A stretch of DNA of 64,000 nucleotides from Herminiimonas contaminans. GTDB taxonomy: Bacteria > Pseudomonadota > Gammaproteobacteria > Burkholderiales > Burkholderiaceae_D. The notes beneath the pieces are model-generated. The model was not told where the DNA came from. It saw only the letters and a program-made list of their open reading frames with translations, and did not search any database. Shown here one piece after another: positions 48,187 through 58,000 of this stretch. Positions within the stretch are counted from its first letter, which is position 1, and every line of letters starts with the position of its first letter. Position numbers and translations under genes: made by a program. The DNA is taken from assembly GCF_015645465.1 (NCBI RefSeq), contig NZ_JADOEL010000002.1, positions 310,001-374,000 on the forward strand, read 5' to 3'.

Positions 48187-48687
48187 TTACTTGTCGTTTT
48201 TTTCTGCAACAGGGGTGTCACCGGCATTGCTATCGAGCAGTTTGCGTAACAGGCTTTTCAGGGTCGTCACTTCTTCCGCGCTGAAATCAGCAAAGCTTTG
48301 ATTCAGGACAACGGAGTACAAAGTAGGCAATTGCTCAGCCAGCGCCGCACCAGTTTCAGTCAGATGCAAATCAATGACACGCCTGTCATCACCACGTGGC
48401 TTGCGCACCAGCATGCCGCGCTTTTGCAAGCGGTCGACCATACGGGTCATGGAAGCAGAATCCAGGTAGAGCTCGCGCGACAACTCGGCAGCAGTCGAAA
48501 AATTACCGCTGGCCAGCATCATCACTACCGCACCCTGTGCTGACGTAATGTCATGTGCAGCCAGCTTGGAATCGACGCGTTTCGCCAGCTTGGTACGCGA
48601 ACGTGCCAACAGGTAACCCACGCTGTCTTCAATACAGTAGCTGCCGGGAGGAAACTTTTCTTTCACTTTTGTCATAATAGGGGTCAT
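48187..48687 (-). CDS. MarR-family regulator of the efflux operon
   Basis: A 166-residue winged-helix repressor, heading the efflux operon. Typical blocks: GYLLARSRTKLAKRVDSKLA, LTSAQ-like ITSAQGAVVMML, the recognition region AAELSRELYLDSASMTRMVDRLQKRGM and the wing RKPRGDDRRVIDLHLTETG. Several in-frame ATG codons near the start and no clear Shine-Dalgarno leave the first residue uncertain. A palindrome just upstream is a likely autoregulatory operator; MarR proteins of such operons usually respond to the pump's phenolic or lipophilic substrates. Confidence 0.93.
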   Translation of the reverse strand: MTPIMTKVKEKFPPGSYCIEDSVGYLLARSRTKLAKRVDSKLAAHDITSAQGAVVMMLASGNFSTAAELSRELYLDSASMTRMVDRLQKRGMLVRKPRGDDRRVIDLHLTETGAALAEQLPTLYSVVLNQSFADFSAEEVTTLKSLLRKLLDSNAGDTPVAEKNDK

Positions 48688-48691
48688 GTCA

Positions 48692-48711
48692 ATAACTGCA
48701 TAGGCAGCTAT
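48692..48711 (-). promoter_or_regulatory. Candidate MarR operator
   Basis: A near-perfect 20-base palindrome ATAACTGC-ATAG-GCAGCTAT (7 of 8 pairs), 5 bases upstream of the first marR ATG and next to a CATAAT -10-like hexamer. Size and place fit a MarR-family binding site. Confidence 0.5.
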
Positions 48712-48782
48712 TATGCCGAAAAGTTCAAAAACTTGCAGGGGACCGCAAAATCCATAGAAAACGCCCTGGGTAATACCTGAAT

Positions 48783-48819
48783 CTGATTGTTAGCTGCCGT
48801 CAACGACGGCAGGAATCAG
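48783..48819 (-). terminator. Hairpin at the end of the LysR gene
   Basis: A perfect CTGCCGTC / GACGGCAG stem with a 3-base loop, extended by outer CTGATT/AATCAG pairing; it begins at the LysR stop. T residues after it are few, so termination strength is uncertain. Confidence 0.55.
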
Positions 48820-49751
48820 ACGACTTCCTGATGCAGCAAGTCCTGGTAAAGCGCGTGCAGCATGCCGCCTTTGGTGAATTCATGCTTGATCCACTGCGTC
48901 ACCTGACCGGAAGTGCTTTGCTGGGTGGCGAGTAGCATATTGGAGTGCTGGCGCGGGTTCTGTACCTGCCGTTTGACGAGCGCGCCGCTTTTCACATGCT
49001 CAGCCACCAGGTAATCAGGCAGGAAACCAATGCCATTACCCAAGATCTGGCACTGACATTTGGCGTTGAAGTCCGGCACTTGTATCGCCTCCTGTCCGTA
49101 CAACAACCAGCCCACTTTCTTGTCGATGGTATCGGCGCTGTCTTTCACCGTGATGGCGGGATACAGGCGCAACTGGCTTTCCGCCAGCGGCTCGGTTTGT
49201 TGCGCCAGCGGATGGGTGGGCGCAATAACGAAGTCCCATTTGATGTACCCGATCTCGGCATAGTCTATGCCGCCGCCATCCATCAGGGTACCAGGCGCAC
49301 CGATTGCGATATCGACATTGTTATTGATGATGGCATCCCACACACCGTTGTAGACCTCGGTGGTGACGGCTATCTGGCAAGTCGGGAAATTCTTTTTCAG
49401 CGCCTGCAGCAAGAATGCAGTATGGCGTGGCGTATGCAGCAGGCTATTGATACATATCCTGATCTTGGCCTCTATACCCTGCTCCATGGTGTAGATACCA
49501 CGTTTGATGGCGTGGAACTCATGCAGCAACTCTTCGGCCTTACGGTAAAAATAAAAGCCTGCTTCGCTCAACTCGATATTGCGGGTGTTACGAATGAAGA
49601 GCGTGACCTCCAGGTAAGTCTCCATCCTCTTGATCGTATAGCTGACGGCAGAGGTCGTAATACCCAGCTCTTCAGCAGCCTTCCTGAAGCTGGCGTGTTT
49701 AACCACCGTTGTGAAGGTATGGAGGTTTTCTTCTGAAAAAATCGAGTTCAT
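48816..49751 (-). CDS. LysR-family regulator resembling AllS
   Basis: A 311-residue LysR-type regulator: N-terminal winged helix (FTTVVKHASFRKAAEELGITTSAVSYTIKRME) and a substrate-binding domain. The effector domain lines up well with E. coli AllS, activator of the allantoin-degradation genes: shared segments include GVWDAI, DIAIGAPGT, HPLAQQTEPLAESQLRLYPA, the VKDSADTIDKKVGWLLYGQEAI block and GNGIGFLPDYLV. It is the last gene of the carbamoyl-catabolism cluster, 88 bases after the carbamate kinase gene, on the same strand. It likely controls this cluster in response to a ureide or related compound; the effector is inferred. Confidence 0.88.
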   Translation of the reverse strand: MNSIFSEENLHTFTTVVKHASFRKAAEELGITTSAVSYTIKRMETYLEVTLFIRNTRNIELSEAGFYFYRKAEELLHEFHAIKRGIYTMEQGIEAKIRICINSLLHTPRHTAFLLQALKKNFPTCQIAVTTEVYNGVWDAIINNNVDIAIGAPGTLMDGGGIDYAEIGYIKWDFVIAPTHPLAQQTEPLAESQLRLYPAITVKDSADTIDKKVGWLLYGQEAIQVPDFNAKCQCQILGNGIGFLPDYLVAEHVKSGALVKRQVQNPRQHSNMLLATQQSTSGQVTQWIKHEFTKGGMLHALYQDLLHQEVV

Positions 49752-49839
49752 ACGGTCTCTGCAGGAAACTGCTATCGGGCTATCGGCGAAACAGGAAATC
49801 TATACTAACGCGTAGCTTACCTATCCCGCCGTTAAATCG

Positions 49840-50793
49840 CTATACCGTCACGATATGCGTACCCGTTTCGCGTTTAATCGCTTGCGGCAATTTTTCCGGG
49901 GTCGTGATGATCACCCGGTTTCCACCAGCGGCGAGGAAGTTAAGGCTGGCTTCGATCTTGGGCAACATACTACCGGCAGGAAAGTGTCCTTCCGACATAT
50001 AGCGCCGTGTCTCGTCCGTGGTAATTTGTCCCAGTGCCTGCTGGTTAGGCTTACCGAAGTTGATACACACTTTTTCAACGCCGGTCGTGATCGCCAGGAT
50101 ATCGGCATTCAATTCCTTCGCCAGCAAAGTCGTCGCCAGATCTTTATCGATCACCGCGTCCACGCCGCGATACAGATGATCGCCGTCCTGCACCACCGGT
50201 ATGCCGCCACCACCCAGCGCGATCACCACAAAGCCACGATCCAGCAAGGAAGTGATTGCATCTGTTTCCAGTACTTTCACCGGCACCGGCGAAGCCACCA
50301 CGCGACGATAACCGCGTCCTGAATCCTCAACGAATTTCCAGTCTGGATGCTCCTGCATCAGCACATCACGCTGCTGCTCGCTGAAGAAAGCACCGATAGG
50401 CTTGGTCGGGTTGCTGAAGTTGATATCGTCTGCCGCCACTTCAACACGGGTAATCAGTGTAATCACCTGTTTATTGATGCCGCGTTGTGTCAGTTCGTTG
50501 ACCAGTCCCTGCTGCAACTGGTAACCGATACCGCCCTGCGTATTGGCGACGCAGTTGGCAAGCGGCACGATAGGTATGTCTTCGTACTGGCTTGCCACTT
50601 CGGCACGACGCAAGTCCAGACCTACCTGCGGGCCATTGCCGTGCGTAAGAACGATGTTATATCCCCCTTCCAGCATATCTGCGATATTGCTGACGATCGC
50701 CTGGATTGCCTTTTCCTGGTGCTGGATGCTTTGCTGTTCATTGCTGGTAATAATGCTATTACCACCGATGGCGATGACTACGAGTTCGTTCAT
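49840..50793 (-). CDS. arcC: Carbamate kinase
   Basis: Converts carbamoyl phosphate and ADP to ATP plus carbamate, which breaks down to CO2 and ammonia. The 317 residues have the amino-acid-kinase family pattern: VVIAIGGNSI, VLTHGNGPQVGLDLRRAE, GRGYRRVVASPVPVKV, VIALGGGGIPVV and GVDAVIDKDLATTLLA. There is no arginine deiminase or ornithine carbamoyltransferase gene nearby; the carbamoyl phosphate source is most likely the FdrA/DUF1116/DUF2877 proteins coded upstream, as with AllK (YbcF) in E. coli. The generic symbol arcC is used because the isozyme role rests on context. Confidence 0.96.
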   Translation of the reverse strand: MNELVVIAIGGNSIITSNEQQSIQHQEKAIQAIVSNIADMLEGGYNIVLTHGNGPQVGLDLRRAEVASQYEDIPIVPLANCVANTQGGIGYQLQQGLVNELTQRGINKQVITLITRVEVAADDINFSNPTKPIGAFFSEQQRDVLMQEHPDWKFVEDSGRGYRRVVASPVPVKVLETDAITSLLDRGFVVIALGGGGIPVVQDGDHLYRGVDAVIDKDLATTLLAKELNADILAITTGVEKVCINFGKPNQQALGQITTDETRRYMSEGHFPAGSMLPKIEASLNFLAAGGNRVIITTPEKLPQAIKRETGTHIVTV

Positions 50794-50815
50794 GAGTATG
50801 ACCCCGAAAATTTAT

Positions 50816-50846
50816 CTGCACGGAGGGCAAATGCCGCCCCGTGCAG
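50816..50846 (-). repeat. Intercistronic hairpin between the permease and carbamate kinase genes
   Basis: CTGCACGG / CCGTGCAG, an 8-base perfect stem with a 15-base loop, and no T run. It could stabilise or process the transcript and uncouple expression of the two genes. Confidence 0.45.
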
Positions 50847-50879
50847 CGCTACAAAAAAGTGTTGAATAAAATCTGATAC

Positions 50880-52433
50880 TTACGACGCCAGCTTGCCGCC
50901 GTCTGCTTCTACCGCCAGCGGCACTGCCGCTTTTGCATCCATATAGTGTTTGACCAGGAACACGCCCGACATCATCAGGTAGGCATACACAAACGGCATC
51001 GAAGCAGGCGCCGCGATCCCAACTACCGGCGCATGGATAATCCCGAGCAAGGCCAGCAAGGCGCCGGTACCCGCTGCCACCGCACCACGCAATGGATGAT
51101 TCAGGATCGCGAAGATGGCGATACAACCCCACAACATGCTGGCCAGCGGCGCACCACTACCGAGGTGCAGCAGCCCGTTGTAATACACACCCTTATGCGC
51201 CAGTGCCTGCGTGCCCAATACCTTGGCTGAAGTACCGGCCGTGGCCATCACGTTGTTGACGATCGTCAAAGCCCAGTTAGCAATCCACGGGAACATACAA
51301 ATGAAGATGACAGGCACCTCGACCTTGGGTGTCTCTCGCACCACCTGATTCGCCGTGACCACACCGATGAAGACCAGGATGGGGACAATCGCCGTCATCG
51401 GTATCACCGCCAGCAGGAAGGCACCGAGGCCAAACAGCGAGACCAGCAACATGGAGACACCAGTCGCGACCGTATACCCTATGCCCGCACCCATCGCCTT
51501 CCAACCGGCATGGCCGACATACACGGTGACCGGGAATGGATTACCGCAAAAGCAACCCAGCGTAGACGACAAGCCGTTGGCCAGCATCACGTTACGGGTG
51601 TCATACGGATCACCGGCAGCATGGGCGCTCTCGATGTTTTCCAGATCGAAGATGTAGTTAGCCAGGCCGAGCGGTACGGCAGAAGCGAGGTAGGGCAAAG
51701 CGTGCGGCAGACCTTGCATAAAGCTATCGATATGCACGGATGGCGGATTGAAACCAAACGAAGCCAGCGATGCCTTGATCGCTTCCGGGCTCTGCAAGCC
51801 GAAAGCCCAGGCCAGCACCGTGCCGACTACCAGTAACAGCAAACCGGTAGGGATACGTGCAAACAAAGGCGACTTGCCGAACCAGTTAATAAAGATCAGC
51901 AGCAGGACGATGAAAGAAACCGTCGGTGTTTCAAATGCCTGCAGCATCGGATTCATCGCCAGCAACAGCAAGCCGAGACCGGACAGGCAAGACAGCAGCA
52001 CGGTACGTGGAATCATCTTGCGCACCGTTTCACCGATGAAGGAACCACCTACCAGGATCATCGCTTCTACGAAGCACCAGACCAGCGCGATCTGCAAGGC
52101 AAACTCGGCATCCTTGGTTTGCTGGTAAACCGGCATCAGCACCAGGAAGGTCACCGTGAAAATCGACGGTGCGCTCGGCCCCGAAGGCAAGGCGGTGATG
52201 TCCTTGCGATTGCCGGACTTCGCCATCTTGATACCGAAGTAACCATAAAACATGCTGGCGCAAAACACGGCCAGACCAAACGCCGGAGTGATCCGGCCAT
52301 AGACCATTTCTTTCGGCAAACCGACCACGAAGAGCAAGAGGCCCATCATGGTTAATAGATTCGTAAGGTTATTGGTCAGCAAACCGAAGTAGGCTGCCCA
52401 GTCACCCTTTTTCCACCATATCTGCTTTTCCAT
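50880..52433 (-). CDS. NCS2-type permease, probably for a purine-like compound
   Basis: A polytopic inner-membrane transporter of 517 residues with 12 or more hydrophobic helices, resembling xanthine/uracil/AzgA-type (NCS2) permeases. Visible blocks: WAAYFGLLTNNLTNLLTMMG, KDITALPSGPSAPSIF, the ENIESAHAAGDPYDTRNVML segment in the position of the NCS2 substrate helix, and CFCGNPFPVTVYVGHAGWKA. GAGGAG precedes the ATG. Its place inside the carbamoyl-catabolism cluster suggests that it imports the starting compound; E. coli has the NCS2 permease YbbY in its allantoin cluster. The substrate cannot be read from sequence. Confidence 0.8.
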   Translation of the reverse strand: MEKQIWWKKGDWAAYFGLLTNNLTNLLTMMGLLLFVVGLPKEMVYGRITPAFGLAVFCASMFYGYFGIKMAKSGNRKDITALPSGPSAPSIFTVTFLVLMPVYQQTKDAEFALQIALVWCFVEAMILVGGSFIGETVRKMIPRTVLLSCLSGLGLLLLAMNPMLQAFETPTVSFIVLLLIFINWFGKSPLFARIPTGLLLLVVGTVLAWAFGLQSPEAIKASLASFGFNPPSVHIDSFMQGLPHALPYLASAVPLGLANYIFDLENIESAHAAGDPYDTRNVMLANGLSSTLGCFCGNPFPVTVYVGHAGWKAMGAGIGYTVATGVSMLLVSLFGLGAFLLAVIPMTAIVPILVFIGVVTANQVVRETPKVEVPVIFICMFPWIANWALTIVNNVMATAGTSAKVLGTQALAHKGVYYNGLLHLGSGAPLASMLWGCIAIFAILNHPLRGAVAAGTGALLALLGIIHAPVVGIAAPASMPFVYAYLMMSGVFLVKHYMDAKAAVPLAVEADGGKLAS

Positions 52434-52616
52434 ACAATCAGTCTCCTCGATATAAACGAGTTATTTTTTATGTAGATACACATTCGCCAGGCATGAGTTG
52501 ACCCACACCCGAAAAATGGGCGAACAATTTTTTACTGTGTGTTTTTCAGCGCCTGAGTTACGGAGCTTTTACGGTTGAGGACTTACGACGAGTTCATGGC
52601 ATTTCTCCCAGACGGG

Positions 52617-52638
52617 CCTGCCATCTGCTGATGGCAGG
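52617..52638 (-). repeat. Intercistronic hairpin after the DUF1116 gene
   Basis: CCTGCCAT / ATGGCAGG perfect 8-base stem, 6-base loop, about 18 bases past the DUF1116 stop and 180 bases before the permease start. No T run. It may act as a partial terminator or a 3'-end stabiliser. Confidence 0.5.
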
Positions 52639-52656
52639 TGTGCTCATAGTTTGAAT

Positions 52657-54087
52657 TTATCCGTGGCGATAGCGCTGCGCGTAAGCAACGATGGCTTGTT
52701 CAAAGCATTCAAATGGCGGATACACAATGCCCGCGCCTATCATCCCTACGCCTGCATCCTTGTGCGCGATCGCCGTATTGATGACCGGCAGGATGCCGCT
52801 CTGTGCAACCTTGAGCAGATCGATACCAGTCGGCACGCCCTGGAACTCCAGCAAAGGGATGGTCACGTTGGGGTTTTGTGCGGTCGTGATTTCTGCCATC
52901 TGGCGCGAGAAATCAATCGCCTCATCTACCGTGCCGCCGACCAATGCCACGATCGCAGGAGCAGTCGCCATCGCAAAGCCGCCTATGCCATAGGTTTCGG
53001 TGATCGCGCTGTCGCCGATATCGAGACCGGAATCTTTCGGTTTGTAACCGGCAAACATAGGACCTATCACTTGCTGCGATGGGCCGGTGAACCAGACATT
53101 GCCCGGGATGCCGCTGATACGGATACCAAAGTCCACGCCGTTACGCGCCATGGTGGTCACGATGGTGCTGTACTCGATGCCGTGCGCGGAATCCATCGCG
53201 GCCTTGCACATCGCCATCCAGGTCGGGCCGGAGAAGTAATCGCTGCTGGCCACGAATTCAAACACTTCTTTCTTTTGCTGCGTCGTGAAATCAGTCTGGA
53301 TGATGAACGGCGTCAGCGCCTGGATCAGCAAGACGGTGCCGGCGTTGTTGCGGTTGTGGCATTCGTCACCCATGTGCAATGCTTGTGCCAGCATCAGGCG
53401 CAGATCAATTTCCTTCGCCAGCTTCATCGCATCACGCAGGATAGGACCCAGCGTGTCGCGCATCCAGTTCAGGCGGATGATCACGCTTTCATCGTTGGCA
53501 CCCATGCGCAGGATTTTTGCCATCTGCTCACTGAGGTTGGTGTAAGCGTGATTGCCGTAGGTTTTGTTTTCCACGATGTGCATATACATCGAAGCCGAGG
53601 TCACACCTGCCATCGAGCCGACGCAATCATGCTCATGACATGGCGAGAAGGTAATTGCACCGGAAGCGGCAACGCGTTCTGCGTCAACCAGATCCTTGGC
53701 CAGCCCTTCGAATACCAGCGCACCGGTAACCGCGCCCTTCATCGCACCACACATGCGCTCCCAGGTAATCGGCGGACCTGAATGCAGGATGGTGGTCTTG
53801 GTCATGCCGGGCACCACATTGATGGCCTGGTCAAAACCAATCAGTACAGGTTGCGACTGGATGATACGTTCAACTGCTTGCGCATTAGCCTTGGCAATTT
53901 TTTCACCCAGCGACGACTTTTCCACCTGATCCAGCGCACGGATAATGTCCACGTTGCCGCGTCCTGGTGGCATCCAGTTCAAGTGCGTGACTGCTACTTG
54001 CTGTTCTTGCAGGTCGTCACGAAACATCTCAATGCCGACATTGATAACGCTCAGTTTTTCTTTAAACAATTGTGGGCTGGCCATCAT
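52657..54087 (-). CDS. allG: DUF1116 protein, AllG-like subunit of a carbamoyltransferase
   Basis: About 476 residues, cytosolic, related to E. coli YlbE, now understood as the AllG subunit of oxamate carbamoyltransferase. The start at MMASPQLFKE has AGGAGAGG just upstream and overlaps the FdrA stop by 4 bases. Conserved family segments are NWMPPGRGNVDIIRALDQ, the His/Cys cluster FSPCHEHDCVGSMAGVTSAS, the NRNNAGTVLLIQALTPFII helix and GVDFGIRISGIPGNVWFTGP. The His/Cys cluster is a good active-site candidate. Product inferred from family and neighbours; direct evidence of substrate is lacking here. Confidence 0.85.
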   Translation of the reverse strand: MMASPQLFKEKLSVINVGIEMFRDDLQEQQVAVTHLNWMPPGRGNVDIIRALDQVEKSSLGEKIAKANAQAVERIIQSQPVLIGFDQAINVVPGMTKTTILHSGPPITWERMCGAMKGAVTGALVFEGLAKDLVDAERVAASGAITFSPCHEHDCVGSMAGVTSASMYMHIVENKTYGNHAYTNLSEQMAKILRMGANDESVIIRLNWMRDTLGPILRDAMKLAKEIDLRLMLAQALHMGDECHNRNNAGTVLLIQALTPFIIQTDFTTQQKKEVFEFVASSDYFSGPTWMAMCKAAMDSAHGIEYSTIVTTMARNGVDFGIRISGIPGNVWFTGPSQQVIGPMFAGYKPKDSGLDIGDSAITETYGIGGFAMATAPAIVALVGGTVDEAIDFSRQMAEITTAQNPNVTIPLLEFQGVPTGIDLLKVAQSGILPVINTAIAHKDAGVGMIGAGIVYPPFECFEQAIVAYAQRYRHG

Positions 54088-55634
54088 TTCGCCTCTCCTT
54101 TGCAAACAAATTCCCGTGACAACAAGCCGGTATTGGCACTGCTGCTGGCGATAGTGACGCCGGCTGCGCTCAGTCGTTCGATCTGGTCTTGCATGTTGGG
54201 ACGATCAAGGTCGGTGCCCAGTACATAGCCGAGGATTTCCAGATGGCGTTCTTCCTTGGCGGCGATAGCTTTCGCCTCGCGAATCGCATCCAGCATGACG
54301 CCGACCGGATCGGCATGTGAGCCATAGCCGAGGATGAAGTCCATGGTGATTACACCTACTTCCGGATCACGTGCTTCCTGCAACAGGCGTTCGATACGAT
54401 TCGACGGATCTATCATCGGGTGCGGTTTGCCATTGGTGAAATCATCGTCACCGAAATCAAGGAAGGTGTGTTCCTTGCTCTTGCTCACGTCCTTCAGGCG
54501 ATACTCGGGATTGAGCTGGATATTGCTATAGACCTTGGGATATTTTTCCATCGCGGCATACATGGCTTCATCGCACAAGGTGCCGCCACAGAACAAACCA
54601 CGTATGTATTTTTGTTCCGGCTTGAGTTTGGCGCGGACTTCTTCGATCAACGGCCAGTTCAGCGGATGCAGGTCGAGGTCTTCTTCCTTCACACCTGTCA
54701 GCAGCACCGCTTTCAGTGCTGCTTCCTTGGTCGACTTGGCGAACACACCGCCCGCCTTGACGACATCGGCTTCCTTGCCGCCAATAAAGCAGACCACGAC
54801 CGGTTTGCTGCAGCGACTGATTTCGGCCAATACTTTTTTCTCGACCGACGCTGCCGGTGGTTTGGAGATCAGTACGATGACTTTGGTCTGGTCATCGGCA
54901 TTCAGCATGCGCATCGCGTCCAGCATCATGATGCCGCCGATTTTTTCATGCAGGTCGCGACCACCGGTACCTATCAGTTGCGATACGCCGCCGCCAAAAT
55001 CATGGATACGCACACTCAGTTCCTGGCTGCCGGTACCTGACGCACCGATGATGCCGATATTGCCCTGACGCACATGGTTGCCGAAGCACAGTGCCTTGTT
55101 ATTGATAATCGCAGTGCCACAATCCGGGCCCATCATCAGCAAGCCTTTGCTGTGTGCCAATTGCTTCAGCGCGAGCTCGTCTTCGACGCTGACGTTATCG
55201 CTGAACAGCATCACGTTCAGGCCCTGCTCCAGCGCGGCGCGTGCTTCGCGTACTGCGTATGCGCCATTCACGGAAACTACCGCGAGGTTGCTGCCCGGGA
55301 CATTTTCCTTGGCTGAAGCGACCGTCGCGTACTTGGCCTGATGCTCGCCTTTTGCGCTCGGCTTCTTCTTGAATAATTCTTCTATGGCCAGCAACGATTC
55401 TTCATTCTTTTCATCGCTGCTACCGACGATCAAAATCATGAGATCGCCGTTCTTGGCTTCTTCCAGTTCTGGCGTCAGCAAATTCAGATTGCGCAGTACG
55501 CCTTTATTCATCTCTGTCGCCATCGCGACGAAAGCCTGCTCCACGTCCGGCAATTGATTTGCCTTGGTGGATATCGACATCAATGAAACCGAGTCGAAGT
55601 AAGTGTTTTTCTTGATTAAAATCTTAAGCGACAT
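54084..55634 (-). CDS. allF: FdrA protein, AllF-like subunit of a carbamoyltransferase
   Basis: A 516-residue protein of the FdrA family, with a fold like the succinyl-CoA synthetase alpha subunit. The N-terminal family-specific domain is followed by GLLMMGPDCGTAIINNKAL (about 164-182) and GIIGASGTGSQELSVRIHDFGG (nucleotide/CoA-like loop), then TGGRDLHEKIGG and a C-terminal half with GYGSHADPVGVMLDAI. FdrA is AllF of the E. coli oxamate carbamoyltransferase, working with AllG and AllH. It overlaps both neighbours (11 bases with DUF2877, 4 with DUF1116), as expected for subunits made in fixed ratio. Confidence 0.9.
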   Translation of the reverse strand: MSLKILIKKNTYFDSVSLMSISTKANQLPDVEQAFVAMATEMNKGVLRNLNLLTPELEEAKNGDLMILIVGSSDEKNEESLLAIEELFKKKPSAKGEHQAKYATVASAKENVPGSNLAVVSVNGAYAVREARAALEQGLNVMLFSDNVSVEDELALKQLAHSKGLLMMGPDCGTAIINNKALCFGNHVRQGNIGIIGASGTGSQELSVRIHDFGGGVSQLIGTGGRDLHEKIGGIMMLDAMRMLNADDQTKVIVLISKPPAASVEKKVLAEISRCSKPVVVCFIGGKEADVVKAGGVFAKSTKEAALKAVLLTGVKEEDLDLHPLNWPLIEEVRAKLKPEQKYIRGLFCGGTLCDEAMYAAMEKYPKVYSNIQLNPEYRLKDVSKSKEHTFLDFGDDDFTNGKPHPMIDPSNRIERLLQEARDPEVGVITMDFILGYGSHADPVGVMLDAIREAKAIAAKEERHLEILGYVLGTDLDRPNMQDQIERLSAAGVTIASSSANTGLLSREFVCKGEAK

Positions 55635-56523
55635 GTTGACTCCCCAAGTGATTACCCAGTAACAAGCCGGCCGTGATCCCGCTGAGAATGTCCGCTCCCG
55701 AGCTGGAACCTATGTTGACTACCGGTTTGATACGCTCCTTTATCGAGGCCAATTCCCCGTTAAAAATCGTTGCCAGCAAAGCGCCTATACATGCACGCGT
55801 CTTGCCTTGTACGGCTTTAATCAAAGCCATATAGCTAATCTTGTTGGTGCGGTACTCCTCTGCCCTGATCACCTGAGCAATCAACGGCAGATACACATGC
55901 GCCGGATGCTGTGGCACTGCCAGCACCGAGCACAAGCCAACCAGGAAATCATCACCGCTAGGTGTCAGCCCGATTCCCAGGCCCAGCAATCCCTTCAGCG
56001 CATCGCGTATCACGGCCGGATTCGCGGTGCGCATGCCATCGATCAGACGTTCGCTGCCACGCAACAGTTGTTGACTCATGACCTGGTAGAAGACGTTATT
56101 GCCGTCATACCTGAAAAGCGACGTGCTATTGATCGAAGTTATCTCGTCATCAATTTCCGACTTAATGATTTGCAGGTAATCAGACGAAAGAGCACGAAAC
56201 AGCAATGGCGGCGGCAGCCACACACGACACGACGCCAGGTCTATCTCCAGTCCATCACCAAGCTGCAGCACTTCTCCGTCGTAGTGCAATTTCGTATTGC
56301 CATCGACCACCAGCTCATCAAATTCAGTGGCACTGATACGTAATGTATTCGGCGCATCATCGAGGCTGGAACACACCACCGAATACAAATACCCACTCTC
56401 GCGACAACGCAGATTGATCACGCGACTGAAACGGCTGTGTACATCCAGATGGAAATCACCCCGCCCCAGCCGTGCCATAAAATCCGCATCCGCCGATAAG
56501 GCTCGCGCCTTAAGCTGCTGCAT
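55624..56523 (-). CDS. allH: DUF2877 protein, AllH-like subunit of a carbamoyltransferase
   Basis: A 299-residue soluble protein related to E. coli YlbF (AllH). The family signature is the C-terminal GLGIGLTPSGDDFLVGLCSVL segment followed by the SSGADILSGITAGLLLG motif; the N-terminus has a basic beta-rich part. It overlaps FdrA by 11 bases. Together with DUF1116 and FdrA it should form the phosphorolytic carbamoyltransferase complex. Confidence 0.87.
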   Translation of the reverse strand: MQQLKARALSADADFMARLGRGDFHLDVHSRFSRVINLRCRESGYLYSVVCSSLDDAPNTLRISATEFDELVVDGNTKLHYDGEVLQLGDGLEIDLASCRVWLPPPLLFRALSSDYLQIIKSEIDDEITSINSTSLFRYDGNNVFYQVMSQQLLRGSERLIDGMRTANPAVIRDALKGLLGLGIGLTPSGDDFLVGLCSVLAVPQHPAHVYLPLIAQVIRAEEYRTNKISYMALIKAVQGKTRACIGALLATIFNGELASIKERIKPVVNIGSSSGADILSGITAGLLLGNHLGSQHVA

Positions 56524-56553
56524 AGTTCACCCTGCGCTTGTATTCAGTCAGTC

Positions 56554-57159
56554 TTATGCGCCAGCGGCAATCAACAGCTCGGCAATTTCGGTATAACCTT
56601 TTTCGCGCGCCAGGAAGAGCGGCGTTTTACCCCACATATCGGTCATATGCGGATTCGCACCGTGATCCAGCAACAGCTTTACGATCTCTTGCTGTTTGGC
56701 ACCACCGTCATTGAGCACGATGGCTTCCAGCAATGGCGTCCAGCCGACGAAGTTGGTGTGATTGACATTCATGTCTGTGTGCAAGACCAGCTCACGCACA
56801 ATTTCAACGTGGCCTTTTTCGCTGGCAGGTGTAATGCCTACACCACCAAAACGGGTCAGGCGAGTCAGGTCAGGTTTGCCCTTCAGCGTGATGCGCAGCA
56901 AAGTCAGGTCATTGGTCAGGCAGCTGAGCAGGAAAGGATTGAAGCAAGTTTCATCTTGCTTGTTGATGTCGGCACCCGCGTCTATCAGAAATTCGACGCA
57001 GGCATAGTGCTTCTTCAGGCTGGCCAGTACCATGGCGGTACGACCCTGGCGATTCGTGACATTGATATCCACACCACTCGCCAGCAAGGCTTGTAAGCGT
57101 GCAACATCACCTGCATCGGCGGCCTGCAAGAATTGAACGGCAGATTCGCTATTCGACAT
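56554..57159 (-). CDS. Ankyrin-repeat protein at the head of the carbamoyl-catabolism operon
   Basis: A 201-residue protein made almost entirely of five to six ankyrin repeats, for example GDVARLQALLASGVDINVTN, RQGRTAMVLASLKKHYACVE, WTPLLEAIVLNDGG and KLLLDHGANPHMTDMWGKTP. No signal peptide or membrane helix, so cytosolic. It starts the co-oriented series and ends 30 bases before the DUF2877 gene, so it is almost certainly on the same transcript. Ankyrin proteins bind other proteins; assembling or regulating the AllFGH-like complex is a reasonable guess. The E. coli allantoin cluster has no such protein. Confidence 0.9.
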   Translation of the reverse strand: MSNSESAVQFLQAADAGDVARLQALLASGVDINVTNRQGRTAMVLASLKKHYACVEFLIDAGADINKQDETCFNPFLLSCLTNDLTLLRITLKGKPDLTRLTRFGGVGITPASEKGHVEIVRELVLHTDMNVNHTNFVGWTPLLEAIVLNDGGAKQQEIVKLLLDHGANPHMTDMWGKTPLFLAREKGYTEIAELLIAAGA

Positions 57160-57471
57160 AAAATTCCTCTTGAGTCAGTCTCGTTGTAATAATTTTTCCT
57201 GTATCCCTCTGTTGAGAAATACGGTGTGTTTTGTTCTCGGTACTACTGGAACTTCATTGAGGCTCACAGTAGCAAGAAGTTTTGGTTTGCAGAAGGCACC
57301 TAAAATTTATTCATCACTTCTCCTTTTATTTTTGAATTTTTCTTAACAATCGACTTTTCAGGCCTGCAAGCAGGCCTGGCGCACAAACATAATGTGCGCC
57401 AAAAACAGGAATCGGGAAATTAACAGCAGCGGCGAGTGCGCATGCGTATAGGACGAATCGGACGGACGAAA
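57160..57471 (-). promoter_or_regulatory. Control region upstream of the ankyrin/AllFGH operon
   Basis: About 310 bases without a gene. It contains an interrupted inverted repeat CTACTG (57243-57248) / CAGTAG (57267-57272) spaced by 18 bases, a possible LysR-family site; a perfect Shine-Dalgarno (AAGGAG on the minus strand, 57320-57325) before a five-codon frame ATG-AAT-AAA-TTT-TAG (57314 down to 57300); and a perfect palindrome CAGGCCTGC-AA-GCAGGCCTG (57359-57378). Which of these is functional cannot be told. Confidence 0.4.
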
Positions 57472-57500
57472 AAAAACGCCACGCATATGCGTGGCGTTTT
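57472..57500 (-). terminator. Terminator after the second tRNA-Glu
   Basis: AAAACGCCACGCAT / ATGCGTGGCGTTTT stem-loop, directly downstream of tRNA-Glu on the minus strand. Confidence 0.88.
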
Positions 57501-57504
57501 AACC

Positions 57505-57580
57505 TGGCGTCCCCAAGGGGATTCGAACCCCTGTACTCACCGTGAAAGGGTGATGTCCTAGGCCTCTAGACGATGGGGAC
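57505..57580 (-). tRNA. tRNA-Glu(TTC), distal copy
   Basis: A 76-base tRNA with encoded CCA: acceptor GTCCCC..GGGGAC, anticodon loop CTTTCAC giving TTC, T-arm GGGGTTCGAATCCCC. Identical to the copy at 57726-57801. It lies behind a terminator, so its expression needs readthrough or a separate start site. Confidence 0.97.
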
Positions 57581-57686
57581 AGAAAACTGCCCTTATTACT
57601 GGCCTTACTACTTCCTGCACTTCCCGACCAAACAGGCACAATCAATTTGCGCGCACATCATGTGCATTCCGCGACATGCCTGAATC

Positions 57687-57721
57687 GAAAAAAAAACACC
57701 ACGCATCAGCGTGGTGTTTTT
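57687..57721 (-). terminator. Terminator between the two tRNA-Glu genes
   Basis: AAACACCACGC / GCGTGGTGTTT stem with a short loop and a long T run on the minus strand. Confidence 0.85.
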
Positions 57722-57725
57722 AACC

Positions 57726-57801
57726 TGGCGTCCCCAAGGGGATTCGAACCCCTGTACTCACCGTGAAAGGGTGATGTCCTAGGCCTCTAGACGATGGGGA
57801 C
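57726..57801 (-). tRNA. tRNA-Glu(TTC), proximal copy
   Basis: Identical in sequence to the copy at 57505-57580, with encoded CCA. It follows tRNA-Ala after about 58 bases and should share its promoter. Confidence 0.97.
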
Positions 57802-57859
57802 AGAAAACTGCCCTTATTGCTGGCCTTACTACTTCCTACACTTCTCTACCACTAGTTGG

Positions 57860-57935
<76 letters not shown>

Positions 57936-57952
57936 TCGAGTGCAGAAGCGAG

Positions 57953-57982
57953 ATTATAGCAAAGCATTTCTCTCTGTGTAAA
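57953..57982 (-). promoter_or_regulatory. Promoter of the tRNA-Ala/Glu transcript
   Basis: On the minus strand TTTACA (57977-57982), an 18-base spacer, then a perfect TATAAT (57953-57958); expected start about 10 bases before the mature tRNA-Ala. Confidence 0.7.
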
Positions 57983-58000
57983 TGCCATTTTGAAAAAATT

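Follow-up and report, generated by a model that had tools for sequence, protein, structure and literature searches.

A yah-type gene cluster of Herminiimonas contaminans as a candidate module for the phosphorolytic use of an imported ureide

A stretch of 64,000 nucleotides from the genome of Herminiimonas contaminans (contig NZ_JADOEL010000002.1, positions 310,001 to 374,000 of the forward strand; hereafter the window) carries, on its minus strand at 48816-57159, a cluster of seven co-oriented genes whose closest known counterpart, by sequence comparison, is the uncharacterised yah cluster of Escherichia coli K-12 rather than the AllFGH system of the same species. The reading that we favour, with moderate confidence, is that of a horizontally acquired, yah-type module for ureide utilisation, in which a phosphorolytic carbamoyltransferase would act on an imported ureide and feed a carbamate kinase. 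Within this reading, the type of reaction appears likely, and the substrate is probably a ureide other than oxalurate. The cluster itself is real and well bounded, and it belongs to a widespread, uncharacterised system rather than being a one-off: since these genes are met again across phyla in 80 loci, as differing subsets and in differing orders, it cannot be put down to chance.

The kinship with yah is seen gene by gene. The AllG-like protein (52657..54087; 476 aa from its ATG; Pfam AllG, 298.6 bits) is 80% identical to YahG (79% over 99% of its length in the search) against 46% to AllG, the AllF-like protein (54084..55634; 516 aa) 72% to YahF against 35% to AllF, the carbamate kinase (49840..50793; 317 aa; Pfam AA_kinase) 63% to YahI against 37% to AllK, and the LysR regulator (48816..49751; 311 aa; Pfam LysR) 71% to YahB against 37% to AllS. 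The ankyrin-repeat protein (56554..57159; 201 aa; Pfam Ank), for which we propose an accessory or scaffold role, is 68% identical to YahD, and the divergent exception is the AllH-like DUF2877 subunit (55624..56523; 299 aa; Pfam AllH, 85.6 bits), with only 32% to YahE. Homologues of YahD, YahE, YahF, YahG, YahI and YahB thus all stand together in the window, and the core order ankyrin-DUF2877-FdrA-DUF1116-kinase is that of K-12 yahB-yahD-yahE-yahF-yahG-yahI-yahJ (b0316-b0324). The two clusters nonetheless differ in that the window has a permease gene between G and the kinase where K-12 has none, that K-12 has the YahJ amidohydrolase and YahC where the window cluster has neither (the sole YahJ match in the window genome is 25% identical), and that yahB is divergent in K-12 whereas the window LysR gene is co-oriented at the end of the row.

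The seven open reading frames (ORFs) run in the order ankyrin, AllH-like, AllF-like, AllG-like, permease, carbamate kinase and LysR, all of them open and all starting with ATG; an alternative TTG start listed for the AllG-like gene at 54105 is judged less likely. The ankyrin and AllH-like genes are 30 bp apart, the AllH-like and AllF-like genes overlap by 11 bp and the AllF-like and AllG-like genes by 4 bp, and gaps of 223, 86 and 88 bp separate the AllG-like gene from the permease, the permease from the kinase and the kinase from the LysR gene. Because promoter-like and terminator-like sites in 48600-58000 occur no more often than in shuffled sequence (7 versus 7.1 and 9 versus 9.0), the presumed co-transcription of the seven genes is read from their spacing only.

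An earlier note on this DNA had described seven co-oriented genes with overlaps, homologues of AllF, AllG and AllH beside a carbamate kinase, and a cluster that stands by itself, brings a permease and a regulator of its own and is free of allantoin genes, a picture that the ORF coordinates, the Pfam and NCBIfam scores and the gene content all bear out. Its label "AllFGH-type", however, names the right superfamily but, on the comparisons made here, the wrong branch, the cluster being instead of the yahD-E-F-G-I-B type, with a clade of its own, an extra ankyrin gene and a shifted F/G boundary. The window and E. coli AllFGH/AllK have in common the three subunit families and a carbamate kinase, whereas the E. 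coli genes run F-G-H-K, lack an ankyrin gene and lie beside allantoin genes; identity, tree, F/G boundary and context together rule out AllFGH as the closest relative. Nor does the regulator deserve the name "AllS-like" that the note gave it, as it is YahB-like by the identities above and falls under the AllS equivalog cut-off of NCBIfam (261.8 versus 372 bits). The kinase, for its part, is recognised by PRK12352 (543 bits, cut-off 266) and lies narrowly under the arcC equivalog (354.9 versus 358.25 bits).

In a tree of 110 G proteins, the window protein and that of a same-genus genome (G150) stand beside 30 rows, mostly from Enterobacterales and their relatives (support 99), inside a 79-row clade that holds YahG (support 100) and also members from Bacillota, Actinomycetota, Shewanella, Bosea and Ramlibacter, with E. 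coli AllG outside it. A scan of named genomes, from which the best 80 of 576 confirmed stretches were kept and which is hence biased to close relatives, placed 69 of the 80 fetched loci in this one clade, across Pseudomonadota, Bacillota and Actinomycetota. Neighbouring genes were counted within 7 kb of G at a hidden Markov model score over 40, in the 60 of the 69 clade loci and the 9 of the 11 sister-grade loci that have at least 7 kb on both sides (complete loci hereafter); in this count L025 was scored as lacking H, yet tblastn finds its H gene, and the H gene of L058 lies just beyond 7 kb. An ankyrin gene is found near G in 51 of the 60 complete clade loci against none of the 9 sister-grade ones; its product is either a protein of about 200 aa by itself or a fusion of some 400 aa with TPR repeats, and the presence or absence of the gene changes 10 times on the tree. 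A carbamate kinase accompanies 54 and a transporter 50 of the 60.

The history of the site is consistent with acquisition. At its left edge lie a tRNA-Ala and two tRNA-Glu genes (57505..57935, minus strand), and at its right edge, outside the system, a MarR regulator beside an efflux operon (48187..48687, minus strand). Of 195 genomes of the family that were searched, 2 have a YahG-type gene with at least 96% identity, the window's own and that of G150, which holds the whole cluster; G050 and G039 have only relatives at 30%. In the congeners G172, G127 and G161, some 500-750 bp lie between the tRNA genes (tRNA-Ala with one or two tRNA-Glu) and the MarR-NodT genes, so that the site is empty, and in G140 an intact 201-aa ankyrin gene is all that stands at the cluster site (L124 696-1301). 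From the empty sites, the whole cluster of G150 and the ankyrin remnant of G140, it follows that a site next to tRNA-Glu took up the cluster and that one lineage lost all of it but the ankyrin gene; this comparison covers 5 of the 11 MarR loci. The G+C content of the cluster, 0.52-0.58 in steps of 1 kb, does not set it apart from the flanking DNA. As a detail of the left edge, the two tRNA-Glu genes and their flanks are repeated about 221 bp apart (57505-57801), and the congeners compared have one or two copies.

The chemistry can be approached through AllFGH, which, in the portion of the report consulted, is a proven oxamic transcarbamylase (oxalurate + phosphate <-> oxamate + carbamoyl phosphate; PMC11326118). 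By analogy with it, phosphorolysis in the window system would yield ATP through the kinase. An alignment of eight Yah-type and All-type sequences has 123 invariant positions among 411 gap-free columns for G and 106 among 480 for F, so that the core chemistry is probably common to both types. What separates AllFGH from the rest is the position of a module of about 50-60 residues, C-terminal on E. coli AllF and N-terminal on the window G protein, whose residues 11-62 match the C terminus of PDB 3dmy (E 0.011) and are 34% identical to AllF over 53 residues (E 1e-5). The module occupies the G N terminus in 97 rows, lies within 2 over-long ORFs and occupies the F C terminus in 5 rows, all AllF-type, and was not found in 12 G rows, among them the AllF partners, fragments and distant relatives; since the sister grade shares the G position, the module does not define the yah clade. 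A structure of this type of G protein is already available, PDB 3clq, deposited as an uncharacterized protein, being its close relative (689 bits). For the DUF2877 subunit, the predicted model (predicted local distance difference test, pLDDT, 95.1) gave no PDB match at E<=0.001 in Foldseek.

The F subunit, which partly resembles the succinyl-CoA synthetase alpha subunit, brings in a different reading, that the enzyme runs in the reverse direction or does other chemistry, as a biosynthetic carbamoyltransferase or an acyl-CoA synthetase-like enzyme. The FdrA annotation would suggest the latter, for the protein, a relative of PDB 3dmy, bears Pfam CoA_binding and Ligase_CoA domains and scores 471 bits against FdrA PRK06091 (cut-off 433). 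Its profile alignment with SucD (hhalign, 97.6%, residues 99-288), however, does not reach the phospho-histidine of SucD, and of 102 F proteins just one has the GHAG motif; together these points argue that F has no phospho-histidine relay; this would fit a reaction that stops at the acyl (carbamoyl) phosphate and leaves nucleotide phosphorylation to the neighbouring kinase. (A histidine column read from a global MAFFT alignment proved misaligned and was replaced by the profile alignment and the motif count.) As the neighbouring kinase and permease suggest catabolism, and AllFGH is itself described as a transcarbamylase in the part of PMC11326118 consulted, we regard such other chemistry as very improbable.

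The permease (50880..52433; 517 aa), which the earlier note had called NCS2, can keep that name at the level of fold only. It has no Pfam match at E<=10, the NCS2 family PF00860 included, no NCBIfam match at 0.001 and no PDB sequence match, so that the assignment comes from a predicted model (pLDDT 79.7, from a 22-row alignment), which in Foldseek resembles SVCT1 (2.9e-7) and UraA (3.2e-7) at a TM of about 0.5; as SLC26 proteins score alike, the model supports a UraA/SLC23/SLC26 fold class and no finer assignment. It is 77-80% identical to the permeases of enterobacterial yah clusters with which it was aligned. That a remnant of the permease persists in K-12, as YahH or in the yahG-yahI gap, was also considered and rejected, the matches spanning only 14-36 residues; the best of these (26 residues, E 9e-6) falls where the tested segment still includes the end of yahG, and it comes from a Microbacterium ORF that overlaps its own G gene. 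On plasmid pADP-1, a shortened homologue of the window permease (35%) shares a row with genes for a nucleoside deaminase and a short (126 aa) amidohydrolase of the ring-opening type (L013 6995-8969).

In the mechanism that we propose, the permease would bring in a ureide, meaning an N-carbamoyl compound, or the immediate precursor of one. The carbamoyl group would then be passed to phosphate by the YahE-, YahF- and YahG-like subunits, whose complex would have the ankyrin protein as an accessory subunit or scaffold, and the kinase would convert the carbamoyl phosphate to ATP, ammonia and CO2, while the YahB-like regulator may sense the compound. Oxamate is probably not the acyl part. Relatives may first remove an amino group from a precursor, by means of YahJ, an amidohydrolase like CodA/AtzC or a deaminase of the CDA fold, a step that in the window organism would be absent or supplied in trans.

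That the substrate might not be oxalurate had already been guessed in the earlier note, rightly so on our reckoning. In the window genome, allantoinase and ureidoglycolate dehydrogenase both stay under cut-off (best 196 versus 358 bits and 174 versus 496 bits), the E. coli control being positive for each, and in the genomes searched for allantoinase and AtzD, those of 50 of the 80 loci, allantoinase over cut-off is missing in 23 of 43 clade genomes. Oxalurate derived from allantoin is therefore unlikely to be the main input. An oxalurate/oxamate system like AllFGH, with its own permease scavenging external or parabanate-derived oxalurate and with its differences ascribed to neutral drift and a shifted gene boundary, would nevertheless share the three subunit families and the kinase with an enzyme whose activity is established (PMC11326118, in the portion consulted), and it would sit well with the 20 of 43 clade genomes in which allantoinase is over cut-off, so that both can co-occur. 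It has to contend with the separate clade (support 100), with the ankyrin gene confined to clade loci in the counts above, and with deaminases in 39 of 60 loci, which would be superfluous for oxalurate use. E. coli, moreover, retains both systems: single allF, allG and allH mutants stop making oxamate, according to the part of PMC11326118 consulted, and since K-12 MG1655 carries yahEFG, the lack of rescue has been counted against an oxalurate role for yah. This last argument is weak, as the strain background of the mutants lies outside that part of the report and yah may simply be unexpressed. On balance, we judge the oxalurate alternative unlikely.

Deaminases are found in 39 of the 60 complete clade loci, as a YahJ-type or CodA/AtzC-like amidohydrolase in 25 (none of the YahJ/AtzC type being near in the other 35) and as a CDA-fold protein in 14; both kinds have been gained and lost repeatedly, with 7 changes each on the tree, and the clade amidohydrolases stem from two lineages. 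Like the window cluster, 12 complete clade loci with a permease of the window type have no deaminase within 7 kb. The earlier note's idea of a self-contained pathway is left doubtful, relatives often having a deaminase that the window cluster lacks. Elsewhere in the window genome, a CodA-like amidohydrolase (C1:314614-315756), which shares 47% identity with its counterpart next to the Ramlibacter cluster, could at a guess act in trans for the cluster. That gene lies between two genes of the gamma-glutamyltransferase family (L122 7015-12455), possibly a separate degradation pathway. The associations of NCS1, permease and YahJ with the CDA-fold deaminase (Fisher p 4e-11, 0.002 and 1e-4) treat related loci as independent and are not relied on.

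A more specific form of the favoured explanation has triazine-type or biuret-type ureides (biuret, carboxybiuret or guanylurea-like compounds) phosphorolysed to carbamoyl phosphate plus urea, allophanate or guanidine. It is suggested by the sister grade, where cyanuric acid amidohydrolase (AtzD) accompanies the F-G-H-kinase set in 5 of 9 complete loci (one scanned copy at 537 bits, equivalog cut-off 360) and is present genome-wide in 5 of 7 genomes; by BiuH-like hydrolases in the plasmid loci L015 (319 bits) and L017 (278 bits), both below the cut-off of 370; by the occurrence, in the consulted part of a 2025 report, of biuH next to allFGHK in ammonia oxidisers (PMC12625717); and by the pADP-1 row described above. 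Within the yah clade itself, however, AtzD is found in none of 60 complete loci and in 3 of 43 genomes, and BiuH, sought in the same 50 genomes plus G000 and G150, is over cut-off in 2 of 52, of which 1 is among the 43 clade genomes (3 more are below cut-off). As for the window genome, AtzD was considered as the missing step and gave no match, in a search with no positive control, a negative that is probably real because the same search of 50 other genomes did find AtzD, in 8 of them; BiuH, too, was considered and has no match there at E<=1e-50. The association thus belongs to relatives outside the yah clade and points to a chemical neighbourhood of triazines and biuret rather than to a substrate, and we hold this specific form to be rather doubtful. 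In Bacillota, five loci (L093, L095, L097, L099 and L104) join PucR, cyanuric acid amidohydrolase, a permease, DUF2877, FdrA, DUF1116 and a carbamate kinase, in some cases with an AtzC-like hydrolase, and these rows make a candidate energy-yielding pathway for cyanuric acid.

The same neighbourhood extends to the atrazine plasmids, where atzC immediately follows a carbamate kinase gene and a truncated one for DUF1116 (G) (L011 7001-9488; L012 7001-9697), an order that also speaks for the triazine form and suggests that the end of a carbamoyltransferase operon was the source from which atzC was captured; the G remnant of L012 branches outside the yah clade. That AtzC itself descends from YahJ was considered and set aside, the deaminase tree placing it with CodA-like proteins on long branches that leave its position unsure. 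We found no paper in the open-access literature that brings atzC and carbamate kinase together, and the term "carbamate kinase" is absent from the consulted portions of three papers on AtzC or AtzB. A broader conjecture, which we put forward as improbable in its entirety, is that of a four-component phosphorolytic carbamoyltransferase (E, F, G and the ankyrin protein) within a superfamily drawing ATP from nitrogen-rich rings, where the sister grade would gain carbamoyl phosphate by fermenting cyanuric acid or biuret, the yah clade would use a related ureide derived from a deaminated heterocycle, and atzC would have been captured from such an operon.

Besides the co-occurrence with allantoinase and the weakness of the mutant argument, several observations weigh against the favoured ureide module. 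The window cluster is devoid of a deaminase partner, and the pairing of NCS1 permease and CDA-fold deaminase (14 of 17 versus 0 of 43) is not significant once kinship is corrected for (4 independent pairs, median p 0.5). Nine complete clade loci have no ankyrin gene (8 from Actinomycetota, 4 of them Streptomyces, and 1 Neobacillus), and a carbamate kinase was not seen in 6 of the 60. DUF2877 is absent by tblastn from the cluster in six Enterobacter-type loci (L036, L038, L041, L042, L043 and L094), and a genome-wide search with PF11392, covering 13 genomes, gave no match in 5 of these 6, so that the three-subunit rule of AllFGH may fail in parts of the yah clade; in Enterobacter, these systems are either able to do without the H subunit or in decay. 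In G622, G627, G643 and G644, by comparison, DUF2877 is missing from the cluster and a copy lies elsewhere in the genome. Lastly, no activity has been reported for any yah-type protein in the literature surveyed.

Outside the system, the window genome has a second AllG-like gene of 25% identity (C1:170548; L010 6414-10415), which stands behind an AtzE-like amidase and an amidohydrolase and next to a hydroxylase of the CO-dehydrogenase type, with no AllF or AllH recognised among the listed ORFs of at least 180 aa around it. Within E. coli, the same seven gene kinds, permease included, are found on an avian plasmid (L005), with no yahJ in the stretch read, and L017 shares the DUF2877-FdrA-DUF1116-kinase-LysR set with the window but differs by its BiuH-like hydrolase, its NCS1 permease and a G protein only 46% identical. 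The fdrA/DUF1116/kinase region of the L017 type is noted in a genome paper as region GR29 (PMC12928451, in the portion consulted), and a 2012 paper on the tkt1 island has yahE, yahF and yahG among the island genes (PMC3349570, likewise in part). As judged from titles and the openings of abstracts, the open-access literature holds no functional study of the yah cluster that we could find.

The comparison ties the yahDEFGIJ genes of E. coli K-12, the plasmid and island copies of E. coli and the clusters of other phyla to one testable type of enzyme, and the relatives in several phyla suggest a possible role for an uncharacterised E. coli operon. The newly found AllFGH transcarbamylase family gains a likely ankyrin partner, and settings that involve cyanuric acid and biuret come into view in which carbamoyl phosphate could yield ATP; the comparison also offers a lead on the origin of the atzC gene of the atrazine pathway.

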